From the NCBI GenBank assembly GCA_019637075.1, contig JAHBWI010000001.1, forward strand, positions 682,001 through 746,000: DNA of 64,000 bases, in the 5' to 3' direction. The position numbers and the translations under genes are program-made. The DNA comes from Nitrospiraceae bacterium. GTDB taxonomy: Bacteria; Nitrospirota; Nitrospiria; Nitrospirales; Nitrospiraceae. This document shows, piece after piece, positions 30,696 to 43,420 of this stretch (within the stretch, counting starts at the first letter, position 1; the number at the start of each line of letters is the position of its first letter). The notes below the pieces were generated by a model. It saw only the letters and a program-made list of their open reading frames with translations, was not told the DNA's origin and made no database searches.

Positions 30696-31382
30696 ATGTC
30701 GGCACACGACACCAAAGTAGATTCAGTCCCGCGCAAGACCGCTCGATACGCGTTGGCATGTTGTGCGAGCCTCGCGTTGTTGATGACTCTCACATCCCCG
30801 GCCTCGGCTGGCCGTTCGCTTTCCGTGCCGATTTCCACGGCAACCCCGGCCGACGAGTCGCAGGGGTTTCCGATGTTCACTATGAAATGGGACGAGGGTT
30901 CGCAGCCCGACCCTCTCAGCCTGCGGTGGGGCCGAAGCCAAGTGCCCGTTCGCGGCGCAGGCATGGCGGCGATCCCGGAGGCGTTTCGCTTTGCCTTAGA
31001 CCGGCTCGCTCCAACGATCCGACCGACCGGCATCCTGTCGCTCTACGCCAACTTTACGGGACCATCACGCGGGGAAGAGTCCGACGCCAGCGTCGCCTTG
31101 GCGGTCGGCTTTCTGGCGATATTGAAGGGAGACCGTCTCCTGCAGGATGTCACTGTGACCGGCACACTGACTCCGTCCGGAGAAATCGGCCCAGTCACGC
31201 AGGTCGCTGAAAAGGCCAAAGCCGCGGCCCGGGCCGGATACCGCATGCTGCTGGTTCCTCGCGGTCAATTCTATGCCCCGCGAGTGAACTTGGCCTATCT
31301 GAGGAGCGAATCCAAATTGCTCGTCTACGAAGTTGGAACCATCGACGAAGCGTATGAACTCATGACGGGCAAGAAACTCTGA
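30696..31382 (+). CDS. Exported Lon-type (S16) protease-domain protein
   Basis: 228 residues. A signal peptide (ACCASLALLMTLTSPASA) precedes a stand-alone Lon proteolytic domain: the segment SDASVALAVGFLAIL aligns with the catalytic-Ser helix, and TGTLTPSGEIGPVTQVAEKA then KAAARAGYRMLLVP with the catalytic-Lys helix of Lon. No AAA+ domain is present. The usual GPSAG context of the Ser reads GPSRGEESDAS here, so an insertion interrupts it and activity needs testing. It faces the CHAT operon, the two stops being 24 nt apart. Confidence 0.78.
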   Translation: MSAHDTKVDSVPRKTARYALACCASLALLMTLTSPASAGRSLSVPISTATPADESQGFPMFTMKWDEGSQPDPLSLRWGRSQVPVRGAGMAAIPEAFRFALDRLAPTIRPTGILSLYANFTGPSRGEESDASVALAVGFLAILKGDRLLQDVTVTGTLTPSGEIGPVTQVAEKAKAAARAGYRMLLVPRGQFYAPRVNLAYLRSESKLLVYEVGTIDEAYELMTGKKL

Positions 31383-31406: not shown

Positions 31407-33860
31407 TTACATCCAATTGCTGATCAGAATGAAGGGCGCCCAATAACTCGGGTGCTCGCGCCCGAGTTCCACCATCATCTTTTGTTGCGCCCGTTGAAGG
31501 GCTGCGGCCTTGGTGATGCTGGGATCCCGCATCTGCCGATAAAACTCCGCGACGAGTTCGGACATCGCCGGATCATCCCGATACCAGAGACTGGCTAAAG
31601 CGCTCCGCGCGCCGGCCTTCACCGCAAGCCCCGTGAGTCCGAGCGCCGCCCGATCGTCGGCAACGGGAGTCTCCGTTGCACTGAGGGTAAGCAACTCGAC
31701 CGGTGTCTGCCTGTGGCGGAGCAGTCCGACCGACTGCGACAATCGATCCATCGACATCTTCTCGTCATGGGCCACGACATAGGAGCTTGCAGCCTCTCCC
31801 TCGATCACGCCCCGCGATGCGATGTGGATGATCCCCACATTCTGCTCTTTGAGTTCCCGTTCCACCGCAGGCAACACGAACTGGGTATCCATGAGGAGCC
31901 GACCTCCATAGAGCGCCCTGATAGCCTGAACCTCCGTCGCGACATGCGGTAATCCGGAAAATCCCTGCACCGGTTCCGTCAATCCCATCGACAGCAGCTG
32001 GCTCCTCGCACGATCCGCGGGGCGCGCATCGGTCAATTCCATGCTCGGTGTCACCGCCACGGCGAACGTATCGACAAGGAAATGGCGACCATCATGGAGC
32101 GCGGCAAACGGAATCGTTCGCAGCGGTCCATCGGGCACGACGATCAGGGTCGTCACCCCCATCGCAAGAAAGTCGCGCTGCAACGGCGCAACGAGCCATT
32201 TATACAGCGACTGAGCCGACCCCAGGTATCCCTGCGAACGCCGATCCTGCACGAGTTTCCGGAACGTCCTGGCTTCCTGAGTCAACCGCTCGGCCTCGAC
32301 CGGCACGCCGTAGCGTCTGAGTCCACCCGATGTCTGTACCACCAACTCTAGTCGATCTTGCAGCATGATCGGATACAGCACGGCCGTATTGACGGGCAAT
32401 GCCTGACCACGCTGCGCCACCCGCACCTTGGAGACGCAATCATCGCGGAAGTAGTCCTGCAGTTCCGCGACGTGCGAGGCTTCCACCGCATCGCGCACTT
32501 GGACCAACCACTCCTGGGTCTGTTCCGTCGATTGAGCAGTGGCTGCGCGACGAAGCAAGGTATCCTCGACTTCCGTGAAGAACGGAGCCACCGTCTGACG
32601 GAACGAATGATGCCGCCCTTGGTAACCGACAGAATACTCGTAACGGATGGGCTTGAGTGCTCCCATCGCCCGTTGATAGGCGGCAATAGCCTCATCGTCC
32701 TTCCCGCCGGCCTTTAGCAGCCGTGCGGTCTGCCACTGCCAGAGGTAGAGCGATTCCGGGGCATTGACTTTCTGCGCCGCCAAACTGGCTTTCCGCGTAA
32801 AATCCAGCGCCTCACCATACCGGCGCTCCCGTTCCAACAAGGAGCCCATGTAGCCCCAGGCAAAGGACTGGGCCCGTGCGTCGCCGAGTTTCGTTGCCAC
32901 CTGCGCCGCTGCGACAAAGGAGTCCGAGGCATGCCGGAGCAATGTGGCCGTGGCGGGCTTATAGGCCGCCGCTGCCGCCGCCTTCGCGGAGGTCTTCTTG
33001 GCATCTTCCGACGAGGCGGCCTTGCGGAACGAACCGCCGGAACGGAGATCGTCGTACCCGAGGCCGATGTTTAAGAGCCCATACGATTTCGCGTAACTGT
33101 CCTCAAGGCCCCGCACCTCTTTTGCCGCCGCATCCAACGCCCGCTCCGACTCCGCAAATTGCTGGTCGTCAAGCAGCGCCATCGCGAGATTGACTTGGGC
33201 CGTCGCAGCCAAGGTGGCTTGTCGGGTTTGGCCAGCGAGTGCCTTGCTCTCCGAGTACACGTCGATCGCCTCGGCCATCTGATCCTGAGCCACCAGCACA
33301 TTGCCGAGGTCGTTCAGCAACGTCGCCTGCAAAGCCGGTTTCTTTTCCTCGCGCGCCAGCGACAGCGCTTTGGTCAGTTGATCGGCTGCCTGCGCACCCT
33401 GACCGAGCGAATGGAACGAGACGCCGAGACGGCCGAGAATCGTGGCTGTGAGCGTCCGGTCACCGACCCGTTCAGAGATCTGCAAGGCGTGCTGTAACGT
33501 CTCTTGCACGCGCTTGACCTGCCCTTCCTGTTGAAGAGCGTGGGCCAAATTGATCAGGGCCTGGGCTTGCTCACGCGCCTTCCCTTCGGCTTCATACAGC
33601 CGCGCGGCCTGGGTCCAGTGCACGGCGGCTTCGCCAAACGCACCGTCGGCAAACCGGCGCTTGCCCTGCTGCATTTCTTGAACGGCACCAGCCGGTTCCG
33701 GCAAGCCACTCGCGTCTGCGAACACTTCTGCAGAGGCCAATAGAACCAGCGCGCAGCAGCCAGTCATGACCAATGTGCGAACAGGCCTGTCGGCAACGTT
33801 TCCAGCACTCGCCCCCGACATGCTCCGCCGTCCCTGCATCATGGATACATTGGAGTCCAT
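31407..33860 (-). CDS. Exported TPR-CHAT protein, catalytic dyad lost
   Basis: 817 residues from ATG 33860 (GGAGGGG 4-5 nt upstream). The frame is open beyond it but runs antisense to homology inside the preceding gene. Signal peptide/anchor (LVMTGCCALVLLASAEVFA), then TPR repeats (about 55-330), then a CHAT caspase-like domain (about 560-817). The two catalytic positions are replaced: HIASRG has Arg683 (CGG) for the active His, and LSATET has Thr729 (ACG) for the active Cys. It should therefore be a pseudoprotease. Last gene of the ShlB-TPS-CHAT operon; the paralog at 37500 keeps both residues. Confidence 0.88.
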   Translation of the reverse strand: MDSNVSMMQGRRSMSGASAGNVADRPVRTLVMTGCCALVLLASAEVFADASGLPEPAGAVQEMQQGKRRFADGAFGEAAVHWTQAARLYEAEGKAREQAQALINLAHALQQEGQVKRVQETLQHALQISERVGDRTLTATILGRLGVSFHSLGQGAQAADQLTKALSLAREEKKPALQATLLNDLGNVLVAQDQMAEAIDVYSESKALAGQTRQATLAATAQVNLAMALLDDQQFAESERALDAAAKEVRGLEDSYAKSYGLLNIGLGYDDLRSGGSFRKAASSEDAKKTSAKAAAAAAYKPATATLLRHASDSFVAAAQVATKLGDARAQSFAWGYMGSLLERERRYGEALDFTRKASLAAQKVNAPESLYLWQWQTARLLKAGGKDDEAIAAYQRAMGALKPIRYEYSVGYQGRHHSFRQTVAPFFTEVEDTLLRRAATAQSTEQTQEWLVQVRDAVEASHVAELQDYFRDDCVSKVRVAQRGQALPVNTAVLYPIMLQDRLELVVQTSGGLRRYGVPVEAERLTQEARTFRKLVQDRRSQGYLGSAQSLYKWLVAPLQRDFLAMGVTTLIVVPDGPLRTIPFAALHDGRHFLVDTFAVAVTPSMELTDARPADRARSQLLSMGLTEPVQGFSGLPHVATEVQAIRALYGGRLLMDTQFVLPAVERELKEQNVGIIHIASRGVIEGEAASSYVVAHDEKMSMDRLSQSVGLLRHRQTPVELLTLSATETPVADDRAALGLTGLAVKAGARSALASLWYRDDPAMSELVAEFYRQMRDPSITKAAALQRAQQKMMVELGREHPSYWAPFILISNWM

Positions 33861-33871
33861 CGTCCCCTCCC

Positions 33872-35167
33872 TCATGATCGGCACGCTCCCGTCAGGTCGT
33901 GCTGGTTCAGTGCGGGCGGCAACGCCGGTTGAGCCGGCGCCCCCGCCACCTCGAGGGCACGATCCAGGCTGCTCGACTGAGCCCCGGCCTCTTCCAGCAC
34001 GGCAGGACTCGACAAGGCGGAGCCTGGCTGCGGCGGGGCCACCTCCCGCGACGACTGGACGAAACTGCTCGCCTGCCCGAACCGATTCGCCGCGCAAGGG
34101 TCGGAGTTTTTTGCCAAGGACTGCGGTCCAAACACCGTGGCAGCCGTCTGAACGTTCTGTTGCAGAAGCTGCGCGGACTCCTGATTGAATTGGAGCACCT
34201 GAGCAGCGGCAAAGGGATTGATTTCGAACACACTGCTTGGAGCCCCGAATACGTCGGTCGGAAAAGTACCACCACCGCTGACCGAGACACGGATCAATCC
34301 GCCGCTCTGGTTCGTGGTGTTTGAAACCGACGCGCCTTGAGGAATGGTCAGGGTCGAGGGAAAGAGCTGGATCGCTGTGATCCCTGACTGGGCCAAGGCC
34401 GGCGTTACTTCGATGACCGTACCGGTCGTAGCCTGAATGCTTCCTGGAGTCCCGGAAACGCCGGCTCCGCTCGACGGCAGCGCCGCTTCCCCGATCGAGC
34501 CGAGGCTCCGCAAAACCGGCGTGGCAGCCGTGAGGTGCGCAGCTTCGAGTCTGATCGGTCCGCCGGCGATCATGAGCACACCGTTCGGCGCCGAGATCGT
34601 TGAGCCTTGAATCGCAACCGGAGCAGGTGCGCCGCCTCCGCTGAATCCGAAAGCCGTGGGGGCGGCGGAACTGAAGGAAAACACGCTGGAAGGCGAGGTC
34701 GAGAATACCGCGTTGTCTGAGAAACGCAGGGACGTGGCAGTGGTAATGTAGATGGAGGCGCTCGTGTTGATGCTGCCGGATGGACCGATCAGCACACCCG
34801 CTGGATTCATCAGGAACAGACTCATTCCGTTCATGACCACGGTGCCGTTGATGTTCGAAATATTTCCACCCGTGACGCGGGCGATCGCGTTCAGCACTCC
34901 TCCGGGATTGACAAACGAGACGCTTTGGCCGGCTCCGACGTCGAAGGATTGAAAACTGTGGAAGAGGTTGGCGCCGCTGTTCGGGCGAAACCCGCCGGTG
35001 ATGAGGCTTTGCGAACCATTGTGCGTGACAGTGGTGCCCAGAGAGCCGTCGGCGACGGGCGCCGTGAGTGCTTGAGCAGAGACCATCGAAGCCATACTGC
35101 ACAGCATCGCAAGCGAGAGGCCCAGGCACTTCGTCAGGTGGCCCCCTCCAGGGTGTCCGATATTCAT
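33872..35167 (-). CDS. Short two-partner-secretion exoprotein (haemagglutinin N-domain)
   Basis: 431 residues from ATG 35167 (AGGAGGAGG just upstream). The signal peptide ends VSAQA. The TPS/haemagglutination-activity domain contains ANLFHSFQSFDVGAGQSVSF, NINGTVVMNGMSLFLMNPAG and VLIGPSGSINTSAS. A short beta-helix and a tail with CAANRFGQASSFVQSSREVA follow. Such passengers are usually thousands of residues; this one is very short. The tail resembles that of cyanobacterial CHAT-linked TPS proteins (from memory). It should be exported through the ShlB-type transporter encoded just upstream. Confidence 0.88.
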   Translation of the reverse strand: MNIGHPGGGHLTKCLGLSLAMLCSMASMVSAQALTAPVADGSLGTTVTHNGSQSLITGGFRPNSGANLFHSFQSFDVGAGQSVSFVNPGGVLNAIARVTGGNISNINGTVVMNGMSLFLMNPAGVLIGPSGSINTSASIYITTATSLRFSDNAVFSTSPSSVFSFSSAAPTAFGFSGGGAPAPVAIQGSTISAPNGVLMIAGGPIRLEAAHLTAATPVLRSLGSIGEAALPSSGAGVSGTPGSIQATTGTVIEVTPALAQSGITAIQLFPSTLTIPQGASVSNTTNQSGGLIRVSVSGGGTFPTDVFGAPSSVFEINPFAAAQVLQFNQESAQLLQQNVQTAATVFGPQSLAKNSDPCAANRFGQASSFVQSSREVAPPQPGSALSSPAVLEEAGAQSSSLDRALEVAGAPAQPALPPALNQHDLTGACRS

Positions 35168-35324
35168 ACCCCTCCTCCTTTCCGTCGATCCCGGCAAGCG
35201 TCCAGTCTCTTTACTCCTTTCCGCACGGAGGAGCAAGAGCATCGATGTGCCACAAAGCCGCTCCAGTCGGCGCTTCGCGGGAAATCCTCCGAGAGCCATT
35301 CGAACGGAATTCTATGCGGCGTCA

Positions 35325-37121
35325 TCAAAACGCCTCGACGACCAACTGCAGATGCACCCCATGGTCTTGGAGGTTGCCGCGGTGCGTGTCGAAATTGTTG
35401 AGTTGCTTGCCCCAGTAGAGCTCGAACCGACTGTTTTTCCAAAAGTTCCACACGGTGCCGAGCCCGAGACTTGACAGCGTCTTCGGGGGACTCGTGGGTG
35501 TGGGCACCGTGGTATCCCAACCCCGCCCGATGTCGAAAAACGGCACCAGAAAGAGTGTGTCGACACCGGCTTTGCTCGTATAGACCGGTACCCTCCACTC
35601 GATGGAACCGATCGCGGCGTTGTCGCGAATCAAGGTGTATTCCCGATAACCGCGAACACTGTAGCGTCCTCCGACCGCCATCTGTTCCAGGGGAAAGAGG
35701 TGGTCGTTGGAAAGTTGCACCAGCCCGCGAGCAAACAATTGCGATCGCCACAAGGGCAACTGACGGAGATACTGGGCTTCACCCAACCAGGAAAAGAACC
35801 GCGCATCCGGTCTGTTGGGATCGCCGTTCGCTGTGGCATCCAGAATCCCTACGCCGACGGAGAATCTGGACAGCAGCGAGAGCACTTGCTCGGAAGACCG
35901 TTGCGTATATTCCTGGCCGAACCGCAGGGCCGTGACCTTGAACTTGCCGTTTGGCGAACCGAGCACCAATTCCTGCGGTTGCCCGCCGAGAAAGCTTTCG
36001 TTCTGCTCATGCTCCGCGGTCAAGCTCATGGCGAACTCGCGATCAACGCGGCGATACATCGGCTGGCGGACGGAGATCCCGAAAATTTGGGCCTTGTTTT
36101 CGATATCGAGCACGTCGAAGGGGCTCTCCTTCACGGCGAAATTGAACCGGCGATACTGCACCGCCACCGTCGTGTCGTACCGATTCACGGGCACTGCGTA
36201 GCGAAAGTTCAAGATCGGGTTGACGCCGGCGGATCGTCCATACTGCAGACTTAACTGATCGCCGAAACCGAAGAGATTCTGGTGGGCCAACGTGATGAAG
36301 CCCTGTTCCGCCCCGACCACAGGAGATTGAAAGTTGTTGAACTCCAGCCAGACCTTGAGCGGATTGGCCTCGGTCACCCGCACATTCAACAGACTATCGC
36401 CTCGCCCCAATCCAGGCTGCAATTCGGCATTCAACCGCTGAACGCGAGGGTCAGCCTGCAACAACTGCAAACGTTCCTGGAGAGTGTTCACATTGAGAGG
36501 AGGCCCCACCGCCGTTTCGATCCGGCTTCGGAAATAGGACGGCCGAAACCAATTCGTGCCTTCAATGTTGATGTCTGTCAGCTTCCCTTCGATGATGTGG
36601 ACGGTCAACACGCCGTCGGACACCGATTGGTCAGGGATGATCGCACCGGACGTGACATACCCGTGATTCGTGTAGTAGTAGGTCAAGGCCAGTCGCAGCG
36701 CTTCCAGATCTTCCGCAGTCAGTTCCCGATCTACAAACGGAGCAGTGACACCAGCCAATTGTGACGAGGTAAATGCCGTGTTGCCGGTGACCTGAATACC
36801 TTTGACGAGAATTTTCGGAGCTGTGATGGGCACGCCGGATGAAATCGGAGGACGAGGCGCCGGCGTTTCGAGCGGGGCCGGTTGCACCGGCGGCGGCGCA
36901 TCAGGCACCTGCGGTGGCTTCGGAGGCAGCGGCACGAACTGCGCAAGTGCCGGGGATACCAGGCCGCCGAACAGCAGCACGCCCGCGGCCATGCACAGCA
37001 ACCGACCGAACGAGCTTCCACGTAACGGCACTGAGCGGCTCATGTCGTGCGAACTCTTCCCCATGCGCGCCGCACCTGCTGCCCTGCTCTCACCCATCTC
37101 AAATGTTACCCACTCACTCAC
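35325..37121 (-). CDS. ShlB/FhaC-type outer-membrane TPS transporter
   Basis: 598 residues from GTG 37121; AGGAGG lies 7 nt before it but only 1 nt before the ATG two codons upstream. Signal peptide, Pro-rich linker (VPLPPKPPQVPDAPPP), then POTRA_2 (ILVKGIQVTGNTAF, VLTVHIIEGKLTDINIEG) and a 16-strand barrel with the conserved VRGY motif (GRYSVRGYRE). It exports the haemagglutinin-type protein encoded next. First gene of the operon, with the promoter at 37276-37303. Confidence 0.93.
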   Translation of the reverse strand: MSEWVTFEMGESRAAGAARMGKSSHDMSRSVPLRGSSFGRLLCMAAGVLLFGGLVSPALAQFVPLPPKPPQVPDAPPPVQPAPLETPAPRPPISSGVPITAPKILVKGIQVTGNTAFTSSQLAGVTAPFVDRELTAEDLEALRLALTYYYTNHGYVTSGAIIPDQSVSDGVLTVHIIEGKLTDINIEGTNWFRPSYFRSRIETAVGPPLNVNTLQERLQLLQADPRVQRLNAELQPGLGRGDSLLNVRVTEANPLKVWLEFNNFQSPVVGAEQGFITLAHQNLFGFGDQLSLQYGRSAGVNPILNFRYAVPVNRYDTTVAVQYRRFNFAVKESPFDVLDIENKAQIFGISVRQPMYRRVDREFAMSLTAEHEQNESFLGGQPQELVLGSPNGKFKVTALRFGQEYTQRSSEQVLSLLSRFSVGVGILDATANGDPNRPDARFFSWLGEAQYLRQLPLWRSQLFARGLVQLSNDHLFPLEQMAVGGRYSVRGYREYTLIRDNAAIGSIEWRVPVYTSKAGVDTLFLVPFFDIGRGWDTTVPTPTSPPKTLSSLGLGTVWNFWKNSRFELYWGKQLNNFDTHRGNLQDHGVHLQLVVEAF

Positions 37122-37275
37122 GCGCATGCCTCCTTCCCGCTCCGAACGGCCGCTATGATTCGAATGCGTTTGTCACGCCGACAGCCATCCGAGCTCCGAG
37201 ACAGGCAATCCGAGGTGGGATGTATCCCGACAGTGGACCGTCCGGATGTGTGAAACGACGGCGGCGAAAAAGTTG

Positions 37276-37499: not shown

Positions 37500-39971
37500 T
37501 CAACGCCAGTCGTTGATCAACAACAACGGTGCCCAAAAGCCTGGGTGCTCATGGCCTGGTTGGGACAATATTTTCTGCTGTGCCCGTTGCAACGCAACGG
37601 CCTTGCCGACGCCGGCTGTTTGCAACTGACGGTAAAACTCCCCCACGAGTTCCGTCGTCGATTGGGGATCTCCCGGCCACAGGCTCGCCACTGCGCTCCG
37701 GGATCCGGTCTTGACTGCCACGCCCGACAAGCCCAAGGCCGCACGGTCATCCTCGATCGCGGTCTCGCAGGCGCTGAGGGTCAACAACTCCAGCGGCTCC
37801 CGGCGATACTGCATCATCCCAACCATCTGCGCCAACCGATCCATGGAAATCTTTTCATCATAGGCCAACACGAACGACGAAGCGGCGTCATGACCGATTT
37901 CGCTGTGGGAGGCCACGTGCACGATGCCGATCCGTTCATCCTTGATGTTTTGTTCGAACGACGGCGCTGAGAACTGCGTATCCATCAACATCGTCCCCCC
38001 GTACAGGGTACGGACAGCTTGCGCCTCGGACGCGGCGGTCGGGGTTGCAGGGAACCCCTGCACCGATTCGCTGATCCCTGTGGTCAGCACCCCTCCCTTG
38101 CCTCGCGCCATTGTGCTGAGGTCCGTCAGCTCCATTCCCGGCACCATCGCCACCGCATACTTGTCGATGACAAACTGCCGCCCATCGTGGAGGGCCGCCA
38201 TGGGGATCGTCCGTAGCGCGCCATCCGGAACCATCACGAGCGTCGTAATACCGCCGGCCAGCAAATCCTGGTGGATTGGGGCAACCAGCCATCCGTACAA
38301 ATTCTGGGCCGAGGCAAGGTAGGCCTTGGAACCGGGATTTTGCACCAACCGCCGGAAGGTCCTGGCTTCCTTGGTCACGGCTTCGGCTCCGACCGGCACA
38401 CGAATTTGCTTCAAGCCGGCGGCCGTCTCAACGAGCAGCTCCAAGCGATCAGGCAATGCGATTGGGTACACCACCGCAGCGTTGGCGGGAATTCTCCCAC
38501 TTTTACGCAGGGCTCGAGCCGCCGTCACGCAATCGTCCTGGAAATAATCCTGTAACTCAGCGGCGTGGGAAGCTTCCACGGTGTCCCGAACTTGGGCAAG
38601 AAGCTGCTGCGCTTGATCGGAAGATCCAGCGACCGAGGCGCGTTGCAGCAAGGAGTCCTCGATCTCGAGGAACAAGGGCGCCACCGAGGTGTAGAACGAG
38701 TGATGTCGCCCCTGTGCGCCCACCGAGTACTCATACCGTATCGGTTTCAACACCGACAGGGCGCGCTGGTAGGCAGCCGCCGCTTCGTCCTCTTTCCCAC
38801 TCGCCTTCAACAGTCTGGCCGTCTGCCACTGCCATCGGTACAACGCCTCCGGCGCCGACACTCTCTGTGCCGCCAAGACGGCTTTCCTGGTCTGATCGAG
38901 CGCCTCCGCCGTTTGTTTCTGTCGTTCGAGCAACCCACCCATCAGCCCGTAGGCATAGGACTGCCCCCGTGCATCTCCCACCTTCGCTGCCGCCTCACCT
39001 GCGGCGGCATAGGCCTCCGACGCGCGCTGGAGCAATGAACTTCCCGCCGTGGTCCCGACGGCTGGTCCCGTTGGTGACGCGACCTTTGCCGCATTGCCCG
39101 AAGACTTACCGCGTGTCGCAGCCGCCACTGAGGCAGCCTGGAGTTCCTGATACCCCGTCCCGATCGCCAGCAACCCATTCACCTTCGTTCCACTGTTCGC
39201 CAACAGCTGCGCCGCGCCCCACGCTTCCTCCAAATGGCGCTGCGCCTGGGTGAGTTGCCCGTCCTGAATCAATACGGTGGCTTCATTGACCTGCGCGATG
39301 ACGCCCAGCGGCGGATTCTTGACTTCTTTCGCCAATCCTCGGCTTTCTTCATACACGTCCACGGCTTCGGGGAACTGCTGCCTCGCGGCCAGCACGTTGC
39401 CCAAGTCGTTCAACAAGCTGGCCACCAACGAAGAATTGCGTTCTTCGCGTGCCAGGGCCAAAGCCTTCGTGAGGTGCTCTGCCGCCACAACTTCCTTGCC
39501 CATGGCATGAGATGCAGTGCCCAGTTGTCCGAGAATCGTGGCCGTCAACCCGCGATTGCCGATCTGCTCGGACAGCTTCAGCGCCTGCTGCAATGTCAGC
39601 TGTGCCCGACGAATCTGGCCCTCTTGGCGAAAGGCGTGCGCCAGGTTGATCAACGCCTGACACTGTTCCTTCGGCTGTCCTGCCTGCTCATACAGCTGTG
39701 CCGCATTCATCCAATGGACGCCCGCCTGCGCATAGGCCCCCTGCTGAAAGCGCGCCGTCCCTGCGGCACTCTGACCGGCCGCATCCCCGGCCGGTTCGTT
39801 CGCGGGTTGCGCCGTTGCGGGACCTTGCAAGAAAAGCAGCCCGAACAACAATCCCGCGCCGAAAATGCTCCACCGTGTGCGTCCCCACACCCGGCGGTTT
39901 CTCCCTTCAGGCAAGCCGGCCCACCCTCTGCCAATCCGAACTCCACGCTGTGCTCGTCGTCTCAGCATCAT
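37500..39971 (-). CDS. Exported TPR-CHAT protease, catalytic dyad intact
   Basis: 823 residues. Signal peptide/anchor (FGAGLLFGLLFLQGPATAQ), TPR region (about 60-340), then a CHAT domain (about 565-823). The caspase-type dyad is present: His689 in HVASHSE (codon CAC) and Cys735 in LTLSACETA (codon TGC). It is therefore a candidate cysteine protease of clan CD located outside the cytoplasm. GGGAGGGG precedes the ATGATG start, 15 nt after the TPS gene. It is collinear with the inactive paralog at 31407-33860 over its length. Confidence 0.9.
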   Translation of the reverse strand: MMLRRRAQRGVRIGRGWAGLPEGRNRRVWGRTRWSIFGAGLLFGLLFLQGPATAQPANEPAGDAAGQSAAGTARFQQGAYAQAGVHWMNAAQLYEQAGQPKEQCQALINLAHAFRQEGQIRRAQLTLQQALKLSEQIGNRGLTATILGQLGTASHAMGKEVVAAEHLTKALALAREERNSSLVASLLNDLGNVLAARQQFPEAVDVYEESRGLAKEVKNPPLGVIAQVNEATVLIQDGQLTQAQRHLEEAWGAAQLLANSGTKVNGLLAIGTGYQELQAASVAAATRGKSSGNAAKVASPTGPAVGTTAGSSLLQRASEAYAAAGEAAAKVGDARGQSYAYGLMGGLLERQKQTAEALDQTRKAVLAAQRVSAPEALYRWQWQTARLLKASGKEDEAAAAYQRALSVLKPIRYEYSVGAQGRHHSFYTSVAPLFLEIEDSLLQRASVAGSSDQAQQLLAQVRDTVEASHAAELQDYFQDDCVTAARALRKSGRIPANAAVVYPIALPDRLELLVETAAGLKQIRVPVGAEAVTKEARTFRRLVQNPGSKAYLASAQNLYGWLVAPIHQDLLAGGITTLVMVPDGALRTIPMAALHDGRQFVIDKYAVAMVPGMELTDLSTMARGKGGVLTTGISESVQGFPATPTAASEAQAVRTLYGGTMLMDTQFSAPSFEQNIKDERIGIVHVASHSEIGHDAASSFVLAYDEKISMDRLAQMVGMMQYRREPLELLTLSACETAIEDDRAALGLSGVAVKTGSRSAVASLWPGDPQSTTELVGEFYRQLQTAGVGKAVALQRAQQKILSQPGHEHPGFWAPLLLINDWR

Positions 39972-39986: not shown

Positions 39987-41273
39987 CTAGCAGCCTTGCC
40001 AGATTTCAACAGCGTGACCGGCAGCGCGTTGCGGAACTTGCACAATCCGCGGATACGCGGGTGCCGCCTGTGCGGACGCGCCGATTTGCTCCAGCATGAC
40101 CGGACTCGCCAAGGTCCCGCCCGGCTCGGCTGGTGTTGCATCCCTGCCGGACTGGACGAAGGTGCTGAACTCACCATCTTTTCTCGATGCACATCGACTG
40201 GTGACTAAAGCCACCGGTGCGTCCGGCGACTGGACCGGCATGACGATCGCCGCGCGATTGAGGAACTGGACCGGATCCACGGGATTCGAGAGCACCACCG
40301 TCGCCGACGTCGTAGCCGAAGCCACGGGCAGAGGAGGCAACCCTCCGGACTGGCCCACCACACTGATTTGAGTGATCTGTTGTGTCACCGGGTTTACCGT
40401 TGTATTCGTCTGTGCGCCGCTTGGAACCGTTAGGTTCCCGGGGAACAGATCGATCGACGCGGGAATCACTCCACCTCCGCCTGCTTGGAGGAATGTGCCG
40501 GAGGAAACCTGGACCTGACCGCCTTGGGAAATGCGTACAAAAGGATTCGACACCGTCGGCTCGACGCTGACATTGCCGCCGGCTGCCGCGTTACTCGCGA
40601 GCACGATGCGTTGAGCCGTAATCCGCCCCCCGTCGATTTGGACGGTCCCGCCGATCAAACCAATCACGGCATTACCTTGAAGCGAAGCACCGGGCGAGAG
40701 CGCGACGGGCCCGTACGGACCGGACCCCAAAAACCCGAAGGAAATCGGTGTGGCCGTTGAGAGCGTGTTGTCGAACCCGAAGGTGCTGGTCGTGAACACC
40801 CGCTGGTCACTGAACTGCACGATATGCGCAGAGCTGAAATAGGCCGATCCCGTAATGTTCAGATTCGCGTTGGGCCCAAAGATGACCCCCGAGGGATTGA
40901 TGAAGAATAGGTTGGCGTTCAGCGCCTGGATTGTCCCATTGATGTTGGACGGAGACCCACCGATCACCCGGCTGATGATGTTCGACACACCGCCGGGATT
41001 GACGAACGCCGCCGTGTTCCCCGCGCCGACCGAAAACTGGTTGAAGCTATGAAACAGGTTCGGGCCGTTTCCTGGTCTGGTGCCGCCGGTGATACTCACC
41101 GTGCTACCGGACGAATTCACGGTGGTGCCGAGTCCGCCAGTCCCCAAGGCACCGGGCGTCGGCACAATGTTGGTAGCCTGCCCCCAACAGGGTCCTGCTT
41201 GTACGAGCCAGAGGGCGCACAGCGCGCCGAGGCTCCGCACCAGCGCCTGCTGCACGGTCGAGGTCCTGTTCAT
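39987..41273 (-). CDS. Short two-partner-secretion exoprotein, second copy
   Basis: 428 residues from ATG 41273 (AAGGAG 8 nt upstream). The signal peptide ends CWGQA. The TPS domain has PNLFHSFNQFSVGAGNTAAF, SPSNINGTIQALNANLFFIN and GVIFGPNANLNITGSAYFSS. After a short helix comes the tail motif RCASRKDGEFSTFVQSGRDA, parallel to CAANRFGQASSFVQSSREVA in copy 1. Secretion through the transporter at 41385-43193 is expected. Two cysteines at most remain in the mature part. Confidence 0.88.
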   Translation of the reverse strand: MNRTSTVQQALVRSLGALCALWLVQAGPCWGQATNIVPTPGALGTGGLGTTVNSSGSTVSITGGTRPGNGPNLFHSFNQFSVGAGNTAAFVNPGGVSNIISRVIGGSPSNINGTIQALNANLFFINPSGVIFGPNANLNITGSAYFSSAHIVQFSDQRVFTTSTFGFDNTLSTATPISFGFLGSGPYGPVALSPGASLQGNAVIGLIGGTVQIDGGRITAQRIVLASNAAAGGNVSVEPTVSNPFVRISQGGQVQVSSGTFLQAGGGGVIPASIDLFPGNLTVPSGAQTNTTVNPVTQQITQISVVGQSGGLPPLPVASATTSATVVLSNPVDPVQFLNRAAIVMPVQSPDAPVALVTSRCASRKDGEFSTFVQSGRDATPAEPGGTLASPVMLEQIGASAQAAPAYPRIVQVPQRAAGHAVEIWQGC

Positions 41274-41384
41274 AATCTCACTCCTTGTCAGAAAGGGGTC
41301 GCGCGGCCCCTCTCTTACGCTTCTGCACAAGTAAGATCAAGGCACACGAAAGTATATTAGGAGTCTTGCTAGAGCCGATCCGGC

Positions 41385-43193
41385 TCAGAAGGCCTCCACG
41401 ACCAGTTGCAGGTGGACGCCGTGGTCCTGCAGATTGCCCCGCTCTGTGTCGAATTTCTTAAGTTGTTTTCCCCAATACACCTCGAAATGACTTCCCCGCC
41501 AGAAATTCCAAATCGCTCCGATACCGACACTGGCTAAGGTCTTCGGAGGCGAATCGGGGGTTTGCACGGTCGTCTGCCAACCATGCCCCACGTCCACAAA
41601 CGGAGCCAGGAACACAGAATCGACCCCAGCCTTGTTCGTATAGACCGGCACGCGCGCCTCGATGGACCCCATGGCGGCATTATCGCGAATCAACGTGAAT
41701 TCCCGATATCCACGCACGCTATACCGTCCACCGACCGCCATCTGCTCCAACGGAAACAGGTGGTCGTTTGAAAGCTGCACGACCCCGCGGCTTACGAGCT
41801 GAGTACGCATGAACGGCAACAGGCGAATCCATTGCGCCTCGCCCAACCAGGAGAAGAATCTGGCATCCGGCACTTCGGCGCTGCCGTTGGCCGTGGCACC
41901 CAATGCACCGACTCCGACGGAAAACCGGGACAAAGCCGTAATGACCTGCTCCGCCGACCTCTGGGCATACTCCTGTCCGAATCGCAGCGCCGTCACCCGG
42001 AATTTCCCGCCGCTGGTTCCAGCGGACAGATCCGCCGGCGTCCCGGCGAGGGTCGTTTCATTCCGCTCATGCTCGCCGGTCAACGAGAGTGCGAACTCCC
42101 GGTCGACCGCGCGGTAGACAGGATGCCGGACGGTCAGCCCGAGGATTTGGGCCTTATTCTTGATATCCAACACGTCGAATGGGGACTCTTTCACCGCAAA
42201 ATCAAACCGCCGGTATTGAATCGCCACAGTGGTATCCTGCGGCGTGACGGGAACCTCATACCGGAAATTCAGGATGGGGTTGACGCCGGACGACCGGCCA
42301 TACTGTAAACTCAGCGTATCGCCGAATCCCAGCAGGTTTTGGTGAGCCAACGTCACAAATCCCTGTTCCGCGCCAACGACCGGCGATTGATAGTTATTGA
42401 ATTCCAGCCAGGCCTTCAAAGGATTCGCTTCCTTGACCTTCACGTTCAATGTGCTTTCGCCCAGCGCCATTCCGGGAAGAAGTTCGGCATTGATACGCTC
42501 GATCCGGGGATTCGCCTGCATGAGCTGTAGCCGATCCTGCAAGCGAACGACATTGAGCGGCGGTCCCGCCGCTTGATTGATACGGCTCTGAAAATAAGCC
42601 GCCCGGAACCAGTTGGCTCCTTCGACATTCACTTCACCCAGTTTGCCCTCGACGACCTGGAGCTTCACCACCCCATCGACGACATCCTGCTCAGGAATCA
42701 CCGCTCCGGAGGTCAGATAACCATGGTCGACGTAGAAGCGAGTGAGGCTCAGCCGTAACGACTCGAGATCGTCGGCAGTCAATTCCCGGTTGCGATAGGG
42801 ATTCGTTACCTCGGCCAGTTCCCCGGCAGTGAACGCGGTGCTCCCGACCACCTGAATATCCCTGACGAGAATCTTCGCTCCGGTCAGGGGCACACCAGAC
42901 GGAGCCGGGGGTTGGGGGGCGGGAGGTTCGAGGGCCGGAGGCTGAACCGGAGGCGGAGCCTCAGGAAACTGCGGCGGCTTGGGCGGAAGCGGCGCGAACT
43001 GAGCCAAGGCCGTTCCGTATGACACGCCGAAGGCCAGTAGCCCGCCCATCAGGCAGACATAGGCACTCGTCATGTTCCTGCGACCGAGCAACCGGGGTTT
43101 GCAATCGCCTTTCCGTTCCTGCAGACTTCCGCACTGCAGATTCGAACTCCTCTCGGAACGGATGTCTCGAATTCTCATCTCCTGCCACGCCAT
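41385..43193 (-). CDS. ShlB/FhaC-type outer-membrane TPS transporter, second copy
   Basis: 602 residues from ATG 43193 (GGAGGGG 5 nt upstream; the TTG one codon earlier is not needed). Layout as in copy 1: signal peptide, Pro-rich linker (APLPPKPPQFPEAPPPVQPP), POTRA_2 (ILVRDIQVVGSTAF, GVVKLQVVEGKLGEVNVEG) and a barrel with GRYSVRGYRE. Strong similarity to copy 1 over the whole length (for example GKFRVTALRFGQEYAQRSAE against GKFKVTALRFGQEYTQRSSE) shows tandem duplication. Confidence 0.93.
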   Translation of the reverse strand: MAWQEMRIRDIRSERSSNLQCGSLQERKGDCKPRLLGRRNMTSAYVCLMGGLLAFGVSYGTALAQFAPLPPKPPQFPEAPPPVQPPALEPPAPQPPAPSGVPLTGAKILVRDIQVVGSTAFTAGELAEVTNPYRNRELTADDLESLRLSLTRFYVDHGYLTSGAVIPEQDVVDGVVKLQVVEGKLGEVNVEGANWFRAAYFQSRINQAAGPPLNVVRLQDRLQLMQANPRIERINAELLPGMALGESTLNVKVKEANPLKAWLEFNNYQSPVVGAEQGFVTLAHQNLLGFGDTLSLQYGRSSGVNPILNFRYEVPVTPQDTTVAIQYRRFDFAVKESPFDVLDIKNKAQILGLTVRHPVYRAVDREFALSLTGEHERNETTLAGTPADLSAGTSGGKFRVTALRFGQEYAQRSAEQVITALSRFSVGVGALGATANGSAEVPDARFFSWLGEAQWIRLLPFMRTQLVSRGVVQLSNDHLFPLEQMAVGGRYSVRGYREFTLIRDNAAMGSIEARVPVYTNKAGVDSVFLAPFVDVGHGWQTTVQTPDSPPKTLASVGIGAIWNFWRGSHFEVYWGKQLKKFDTERGNLQDHGVHLQLVVEAF

Positions 43194-43420
43194 CAAGTCC
43201 CCTCCCTCTCACTCATTGGCGGTCACCGAATCTTCGGCGAACCATGTCCGTTTCACATGCACCGTGAAGTCCCGCCGCGGCAAGATATCGCTCCGGCGCA
43301 TTGGGAAAGACGGCACGCGTCCGCGGCCCTCTTGAAACAGAACCATCGAACCGGCTCATCAGGTGCGCAGGTTCGTCACTACGTATCTCTTATTGGAGAG
43401 CAAGCAAAGCGAGGGGACTG

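Follow-up and report, generated by a model that had tools for sequence, protein, structure and literature searches.

A TPR-CHAT protein that has lost its caspase-type dyad at a two-partner-secretion locus of a Nitrospiraceae bacterium

A Nitrospiraceae bacterium (assembly GCA_019637075.1) carries two related genes for TPR-CHAT proteins within the 64,000-nucleotide stretch of contig JAHBWI010000001.1 analyzed here (positions 682,001 to 746,000, forward strand; hereafter the window, numbered from its first letter). One of them, designated copy 1 (31407–33860, minus strand; 817 amino acids; Pfam TPR_12 and CHAT), has lost both residues of the caspase-type His/Cys dyad. Bacterial CHAT proteins are known as proteases, for example the RNA-triggered Craspase. 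Copy 1 is probably a pseudo-CHAT of a ShlB-TpsA-CHAT module, i.e., a once-proteolytic exported TPR-CHAT protein that has been retained because it binds a partner or acts as a scaffold. The source genome (G000; 4.06 Mb in 22 contigs) belongs to the family that holds Nitrospira, and the named relatives are mostly Nitrospira.

Dyad residues in the window copies and their relatives

Translation of the minus strand (31407–33863) gives for copy 1 a frame that is open over 817 codons from the ATG at 33858–33860, in which the position of the catalytic His is occupied by Arg683 (codon CGG, 31812–31814, motif HIASRG) and that of the catalytic Cys by Thr729 (codon ACG, 31674–31676, motif LSATET). The paralog, copy 2 (37500–39971, minus strand), has both dyad residues, His689 (codon 37905–37907, motif HVASHS) and Cys735 (codon 37767–37769, motif LSACET). 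The DNA and the translations bear out the first-pass annotation, which had reported the loss of both catalytic residues between 31674 and 31814, the open frame, and the two residues of copy 2. The CHAT domain of copy 1 (31422–32219, minus strand, residues 549–814 of P0001) matches PF12770 with an E-value of 5.7e-49 and 167.5 bits against a curated cut-off of 24, and the E-value for copy 2 is 3.2e-50. Because Arg683 and Thr729 stand in place of the His/Cys dyad that characterizes active CHAT proteases, copy 1 is regarded as a CHAT-fold protein and is not classed as a CHAT protease.

Intact relatives encode the dyad by CAY and TGY, from which the Arg codon is two base changes away and the Thr codon three; therefore, a single read error cannot explain the codons of copy 1. 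The sequence comes from a single assembly, but the altered codons lie in a clean open frame and the whole protein is divergent (at most 70% identical to its nearest relative), so that the chance of a sequencing or assembly error is practically negligible. Threonine can serve as the nucleophile in other protease classes. Alternative catalysis with Thr729 in this role is nevertheless very unlikely, since the general base His is replaced by Arg and no relative among the 141 distinct CHAT open reading frames (ORFs) described below has Thr at this position. A Cys to Ser change also inactivates Craspase, whose dyad is His585/Cys627 and in which, according to PMC9729208, replacement of Cys627 by Ala or Ser abolishes cleavage; for the other Csx29 described in PMC10028731, H615A/C658A is reported to have the same effect. 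By analogy with these Cys to Ala/Ser forms of Craspase, copy 1 would no longer be able to cleave.

Of the 175 genomes of the family, 168 had a match, in many cases confined to the TPR part. Merging of hits with identical last 180 residues reduced the 175 CHAT ORFs of the fetched loci to 141, so that some species are represented jointly. The outer set comprises 105 sequences from the top matches listed in this search, most of the listed places having been fetched. Among the 141 distinct ORFs, the dyad state is HC in 133, QC in four, RC, HS and RT in one each, and a gap in one fragment. His and Cys are both present in all 105 outer sequences (among the matches listed), whereas all seven departures fall within an inner clade of 34 rows that contains both window copies (33 rows without L052, a frameshifted copy from genome G038). 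A maximum-likelihood tree of 40 rows places five changes of dyad state, all of them in the inner clade: to R/T in window copy 1; to Q (codon CAA) in L051 of G021; to Q (codon CAG) in L019 of G038, L168 of G042 and the frameshifted L052; to R in L167 of G025; and to S in L173 of G043. The dyad has been lost at least five times independently and, among the matches listed, in the inner clade only (7 of 34 rows versus 0 of 105 outside). In FastTree phylogenies with the dyad columns removed, the inner rows again group as a single clade, which accounts for 17% of the total branch length with full-length sequences and for 22% with the CHAT domain alone. The probability that all five losses fall in it under equal rates is 1.6e-4 or 4.8e-4, respectively, in a test made after the pattern had been seen.

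It should be noted that the L157 rows (two ORFs from one locus, one of them a fragment) and L052 were excluded from the counts of near-invariant columns, pocket replacements, tree length and column instability, and that L052 was kept in the maximum-likelihood tree and in the pairwise table of nonsynonymous (dN) and synonymous (dS) divergence. L052 (5098–7583) is a second Gln-type CHAT gene of G038. A frameshift interrupts it, although the ShlB-TpsA-CHAT-LonL locus around it is complete, and it could be either a real pseudogene or a product of mixed strains in the assembly. Outside the Nitrospira phylum, a TPR-CHAT relative with an intact dyad and 36% identity was found in a Thiomargarita record (L043:1028–3430).

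The copy-1-type relatives found among the matches listed are L037, L038 (N. defluvii) and L045, which are nearest to copy 1, followed by L039 and L049. His and Cys are present in all five, and the Arg/Thr loss is therefore specific to the window lineage. In favor of orthology, copy 1 is 70% identical to L045, and ShlB1, the transporter of its module, shows 76% identity to its counterparts in L038 and L045; as the tree leaves a polytomy between copy 1, the group of L037, L038 and L045, and the copy-2 clade, these relatives are putative rather than strict orthologs. The first-pass annotation had proposed that Arg/Thr conserved in the orthologs of copy 1 would support a pseudoprotease role, and had named orthologs with intact His and Cys as evidence against a pseudoprotease. 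The five relatives do not show the conserved Arg/Thr, and a pseudoprotease conserved across the copy-1 orthologs is ruled out by them; they leave a lineage-specific pseudoprotease standing. In the scenario that we propose, the ancestor of copy 1 would have had the caspase-type His/Cys dyad, and both residues would have been lost in the window lineage while purifying selection continued.

Selection on the dyad-less proteins

The ratio of dN to dS (omega) was estimated with a codon branch model whose fixed topology joins copy 1 to L037/L038/L045 as a sister, at the fork left open in the tree. Along the branch leading to copy 1, omega differs significantly from 1 in both the CHAT domain and the TPR part (twice the log-likelihood difference, 2dL, of 31.2 and 78.9, respectively). 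The CHAT omega is 0.070 on this branch versus 0.040 elsewhere, and the difference is not significant (2dL 1.30); with dS saturated, the branch test has no power to detect relaxed or changed selection on copy 1. Besides the dyad, the near-invariant CHAT columns changed in copy 1 are six conservative replacements (V-I, L-V, L-V, L-M, L-I and N-S), and none of the 45 near-invariant TPR columns is changed. When neutral decay was simulated, 59% of frames of 800 codons contained a stop at 0.01 substitutions per site and 99% at 0.05, and under a simple model the probability of a codon differing at all three bases is 0.0001 at 0.05 and 0.015 at 0.3 substitutions per site. Taken together, these results suggest that the loss in copy 1 is old, the frame and the fold having been kept and the catalytic constraint being gone.

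Several observations weigh against the interpretation of copy 1 as a retained pseudo-CHAT. The dS values between copy 1 and its relatives are saturated, so that selection after the loss is not directly measurable for copy 1, and its branch also spans time before the dyad was lost. The Arg/Thr form is present in one genome only, and a genus search returned no second genome of the source genus besides G000. The CHAT domain of copy 1 has changed relatively fast, with a CHAT/TPR ratio of dN of 0.83–0.90 against L037, L038 and L045, compared to 0.48–0.69 between L045 and the other four active relatives. Changes at near-invariant CHAT columns number 8 of 73 in copy 1, versus 0–3 in the other inner rows, and this faster evolution may fit a partial relaxation. 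Moreover, the dyad columns are not uniquely unstable: among 100 columns with 99% or more conservation outside the inner clade, six changed within it more often than the His column and four others equally often.

The same data bear on early decay, i.e., the possibility that copy 1 is redundant beside copy 2 and is slowly degenerating. The confinement of the loss to the window lineage, the raised dN ratio and the number of changed CHAT columns would be expected under this scenario. However, the frame is open where neutral simulation gives stops, the codons replaced at several bases indicate that the loss is probably not recent, omega = 1 is rejected on the copy-1 branch, and the six further changes are conservative with the TPR columns untouched, which makes decay an unlikely explanation. 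The original suggestion of a selected pseudoprotease rather than a decaying gene is thereby upheld in part: the open frame, omega below 1 and the conservative changes agree with it, whereas the loss turned out to be lineage-specific, the tested branch includes time before the loss, and the CHAT domain is maybe somewhat relaxed, although the branch test is not significant in this respect.

The Gln-type proteins L019 and L168 offer a comparison in which the time after the loss can be separated. As the His to Gln change is common to both, the differences between them postdate the loss. Their dN of 0.013 and dS of 0.163 give an omega of 0.081 (0.048 for CHAT and 0.096 for TPR), comparable to that of intact pairs (0.050–0.118 for four pairs with dS under 0.256; 0.075 for L171/L029). 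Omega on the L019/L168 tips differs significantly from 1 (2dL 54.9 for CHAT and 86.4 for TPR), and no difference in omega from the background was found (2dL 0.38 and 1.10). Strong purifying selection has acted after the His to Gln loss in these two species, in which Gln at the His position would be expected to abolish activity. The losses seen in single genomes (L051, L167 and L173) have a CHAT omega near the background on branches that include time before the loss. Among intact tips, L166 has a similar omega and L162 a lower one, and the CHAT test for the active sister L158 had no power (2dL 1.24).

The copy-2 pocket and genomes with both paralogs

The 27 rows of the copy-2 clade carry replacements at columns with 99% or more conservation among the 105 outer CHATs, namely G685 (27 of 27), G735 (26 of 27), A750 (27 of 27) and L638 (27 of 27; P0001 numbering). 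Copy 2 itself lacks two glycines that sequences outside the clade almost always have, at 685, directly after the dyad His, and at 735. In caspases, the Gly after the His is an oxyanion-hole residue; copy 1 keeps the Gly after its dyad His position. Because these near-invariant pocket columns are replaced in the copy-2 clade, copy 2 is not simply to be called active. Within the clade, His is kept in 23 and Cys in 26 of the 27 rows, and columns close to the dyad are not significantly richer in replacements than the others (4 of 14 versus 10 of 56 columns; Fisher p 0.46).

A possible, although doubtful, reading of this pattern is that CHAT proteolysis is becoming dispensable clade-wide, the pocket having been remodeled first and the dyad drifting off lineage by lineage, with binding alone under selection. 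The replacement of G685, G735 and A750 across the clade agrees with such a sequence of events, as do the five losses to residues as different as Q, Q, R, S and R/T. On the other hand, the replaced columns do not cluster at the active-site motifs, the dyad is still mostly held, and copy 1 belongs to a lineage with a canonical pocket.

Both paralog types occur in six genomes (G000, G016, G017, G021, G025 and G032). In three of them one copy is dead; in G000 this copy is of the copy-1 type, in G021 and G025 it is of the copy-2 type. Both copies are intact in G016, G017 and G032; three of six are too few to claim a link between dead copies and the possession of two paralogs. G038, G042 and G043 have a dead copy and no intact inner-clade paralog was detected in them. 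The first-pass annotation had envisaged an enzyme with its regulator or decoy, in which copy 1 would bind copy 2 or its substrate and so control cleavage by copy 2. The adjacency of the two modules in the window and the occurrence of one intact and one dead paralog in G021 and G025 lend this idea some support, but the type of the dead paralog differs between genomes, half of the two-paralog genomes have both copies intact, and G038, G042 and G043 have a dead copy without a detected intact partner. Furthermore, the two window copies are only 53–56% identical and are not recent duplicates, their modules are in tandem only in the window among the loci examined, and the surroundings of the copy-2 active site depart from the outer consensus. 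We therefore consider an enzyme and regulator pair improbable.

Secretion loci, proposed role and known systems

Two tandem ShlB-TpsA-CHAT modules occupy the minus strand of the window, at 43196–37500 (copy 2) and 37127–31407 (copy 1), and both have Pfam matches to ShlB, POTRA_2, TPS, TPR and CHAT. The copy-1 module consists of ShlB1, a ShlB/FhaC-type outer-membrane transporter (35325–37127; ShlB 1.7e-29, POTRA_2 2e-21), TpsA1, a short TPS-domain exoprotein (33872–35299; TPS 1.7e-34, NCBIfam adhes_NPXG), and copy 1, whereas the copy-2 module has ShlB2 (41385–43196; ShlB 2.1e-31) and TpsA2, also a short TPS-domain exoprotein (39987–41330; TPS 1e-33). Thus, a ShlB/FhaC transporter and a TPS-domain protein adjoin each CHAT gene, and the order is the same in relatives. 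Among the matches listed, 100 outer CHAT loci were compared; ShlB was found at 96 of them and TpsA at 76, and therefore an exported TPR-CHAT protein is a regular part of two-partner-secretion (TPS) loci in the family. The N-terminus of copy 1 has a hydrophobic stretch, LVMTGCCALVLLASA, which resembles a signal peptide, and copy 1 is probably exported. A third CHAT protein of the source genome (G000:C1:38402–39241; L003, L053), with a frame of 1147 amino acids, is distant from both copies and has the motif LNACETG.

Loci of the copy-2 clade have the order ShlB, TpsA of about 440 amino acids and CHAT, followed by a convergent gene, LonL, as far as the contigs or fetched stretches reach, and LonL is a near-constant neighbor of their CHAT genes. 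In the window, LonL (30696–31382, plus strand; Pfam Lon_C 2e-06) adjoins copy 1 and is convergent with it. It is a small protein with export-like features and a Lon-type S16 domain, which aligns to the solved archaeal Lon with an E-value of 4.6e-9. At the nucleophile position, as placed by alignment, 29 of 31 distinct relatives have Thr, whereas the window protein has Asp and that of L037 has Gly; Lys is present in the window LonL at the catalytic Lys position of archaeal Lon. LonL lies beside all seven dead rows; since 22 of 27 intact inner rows have it too, its adjacency is no evidence of a link to dyad loss.

Three intact copy-1-type loci have a long TpsA with ORFs of 811–843 amino acids (L038:7514–9946, L045:4077–6512 and L049:5111–7639). 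The window TpsA1 is short (479 amino acids) and is 33–40% identical to these proteins, mainly in the TPS domain. The comparison of the inactive copy 1 with the active L038, L045 and L049 thus points to an apparent exchange of cargo beside a conserved transporter. The intact L039 also has a short TpsA (436 amino acids), so that TpsA length alone does not track dyad loss.

The intact remainder of copy 1, together with the repeated independent losses in its relatives, suggests that copy 1 does a job other than cutting. With less certainty, it may act in the periplasm by binding and not by cleavage, in which case the TPR part would dock a partner and the dead CHAT fold would hold or shield a TPS component or another client. 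A broader conjecture, which we offer tentatively, is that the main function of TPR-CHAT proteins at Nitrospiraceae TPS loci would not involve proteolysis, the dyad being repeatedly discarded while selection on the proteins continues, and that copy 1 and LonL, the two protease-like proteins at the end of the window locus, both lacking a nucleophile, would serve TPS cargo as a scaffold or for quality control without cleaving it. Because relatives with and without the dyad occur naturally at secretion loci of one kind, and the dyad was lost among them at least five times independently, the roles of CHAT proteins besides cutting can be addressed directly.

Structure prediction gave a weak AlphaFold model of the copy-2 CHAT domain (mean predicted local distance difference test score, pLDDT, of 48), whose best PDB match was SAVED-CHAT 8tl0 (E 1.2e-3) with caspases among the next ones (E about 0.4 and higher). 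The model of half of the TPR part and the CHAT domain of copy 1 was also weak (pLDDT 58), and no geometry was taken from the models of either copy. A PDB sequence search with copy 2 returned TPR proteins or TPR-like stretches only, and a search with the CHAT profile returned nothing.

Among known systems, both window modules resemble two-partner-secretion systems (ShlB/FhaC and TpsA) in pairing a POTRA_2-containing transporter of the ShlB type with a TPS-domain protein, and differ from them in including a TPR-CHAT gene. In the open-licence literature, we found no paper that joins the CHAT domain with two-partner secretion, hemagglutinin, pseudoproteases or pseudoenzymes; Nitrospira and the CHAT domain are mentioned together in two papers, once each. 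HetF of heterocystous cyanobacteria is, to our knowledge, not a TPS-locus protein. Like the window copies, it is a bacterial CHAT protein, and it is described as a putative protease (PMC8406250). The TPR-CHAT protein of Craspase (Csx29, type III-E CRISPR) shares with the window proteins the order of TPR and CHAT and, in the active forms, the His/Cys dyad, as far as described in PMC9729208 and PMC10028731. The window proteins differ from Csx29 in their export-like N-terminus and in their neighbors, which are ShlB and TpsA rather than Cas7-11, and copy 1 is without the dyad; Cas7-11/gRAMP is not among the genes flanking either copy (ShlB, TpsA and LonL), the whole genome not having been searched for it. 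Dead caspase-fold proteins are already known in bacteria, as reported for the pseudo-orthocaspases, p20 homologs with Tyr/Ser in place of His/Cys that keep the caspase fold and, like copy 1, have lost the dyad and are retained, being presumed inactive (PMC6426788). Copy 1 has no match to the Peptidase_C14 p20 domain (Pfam, E 1e-3) and consists of TPR and CHAT only. Whereas the pseudo-orthocaspases are built on the p20 domain and show one Tyr/Ser form across many species, the window clade is built on CHAT and shows several lineage-specific losses at secretion loci.
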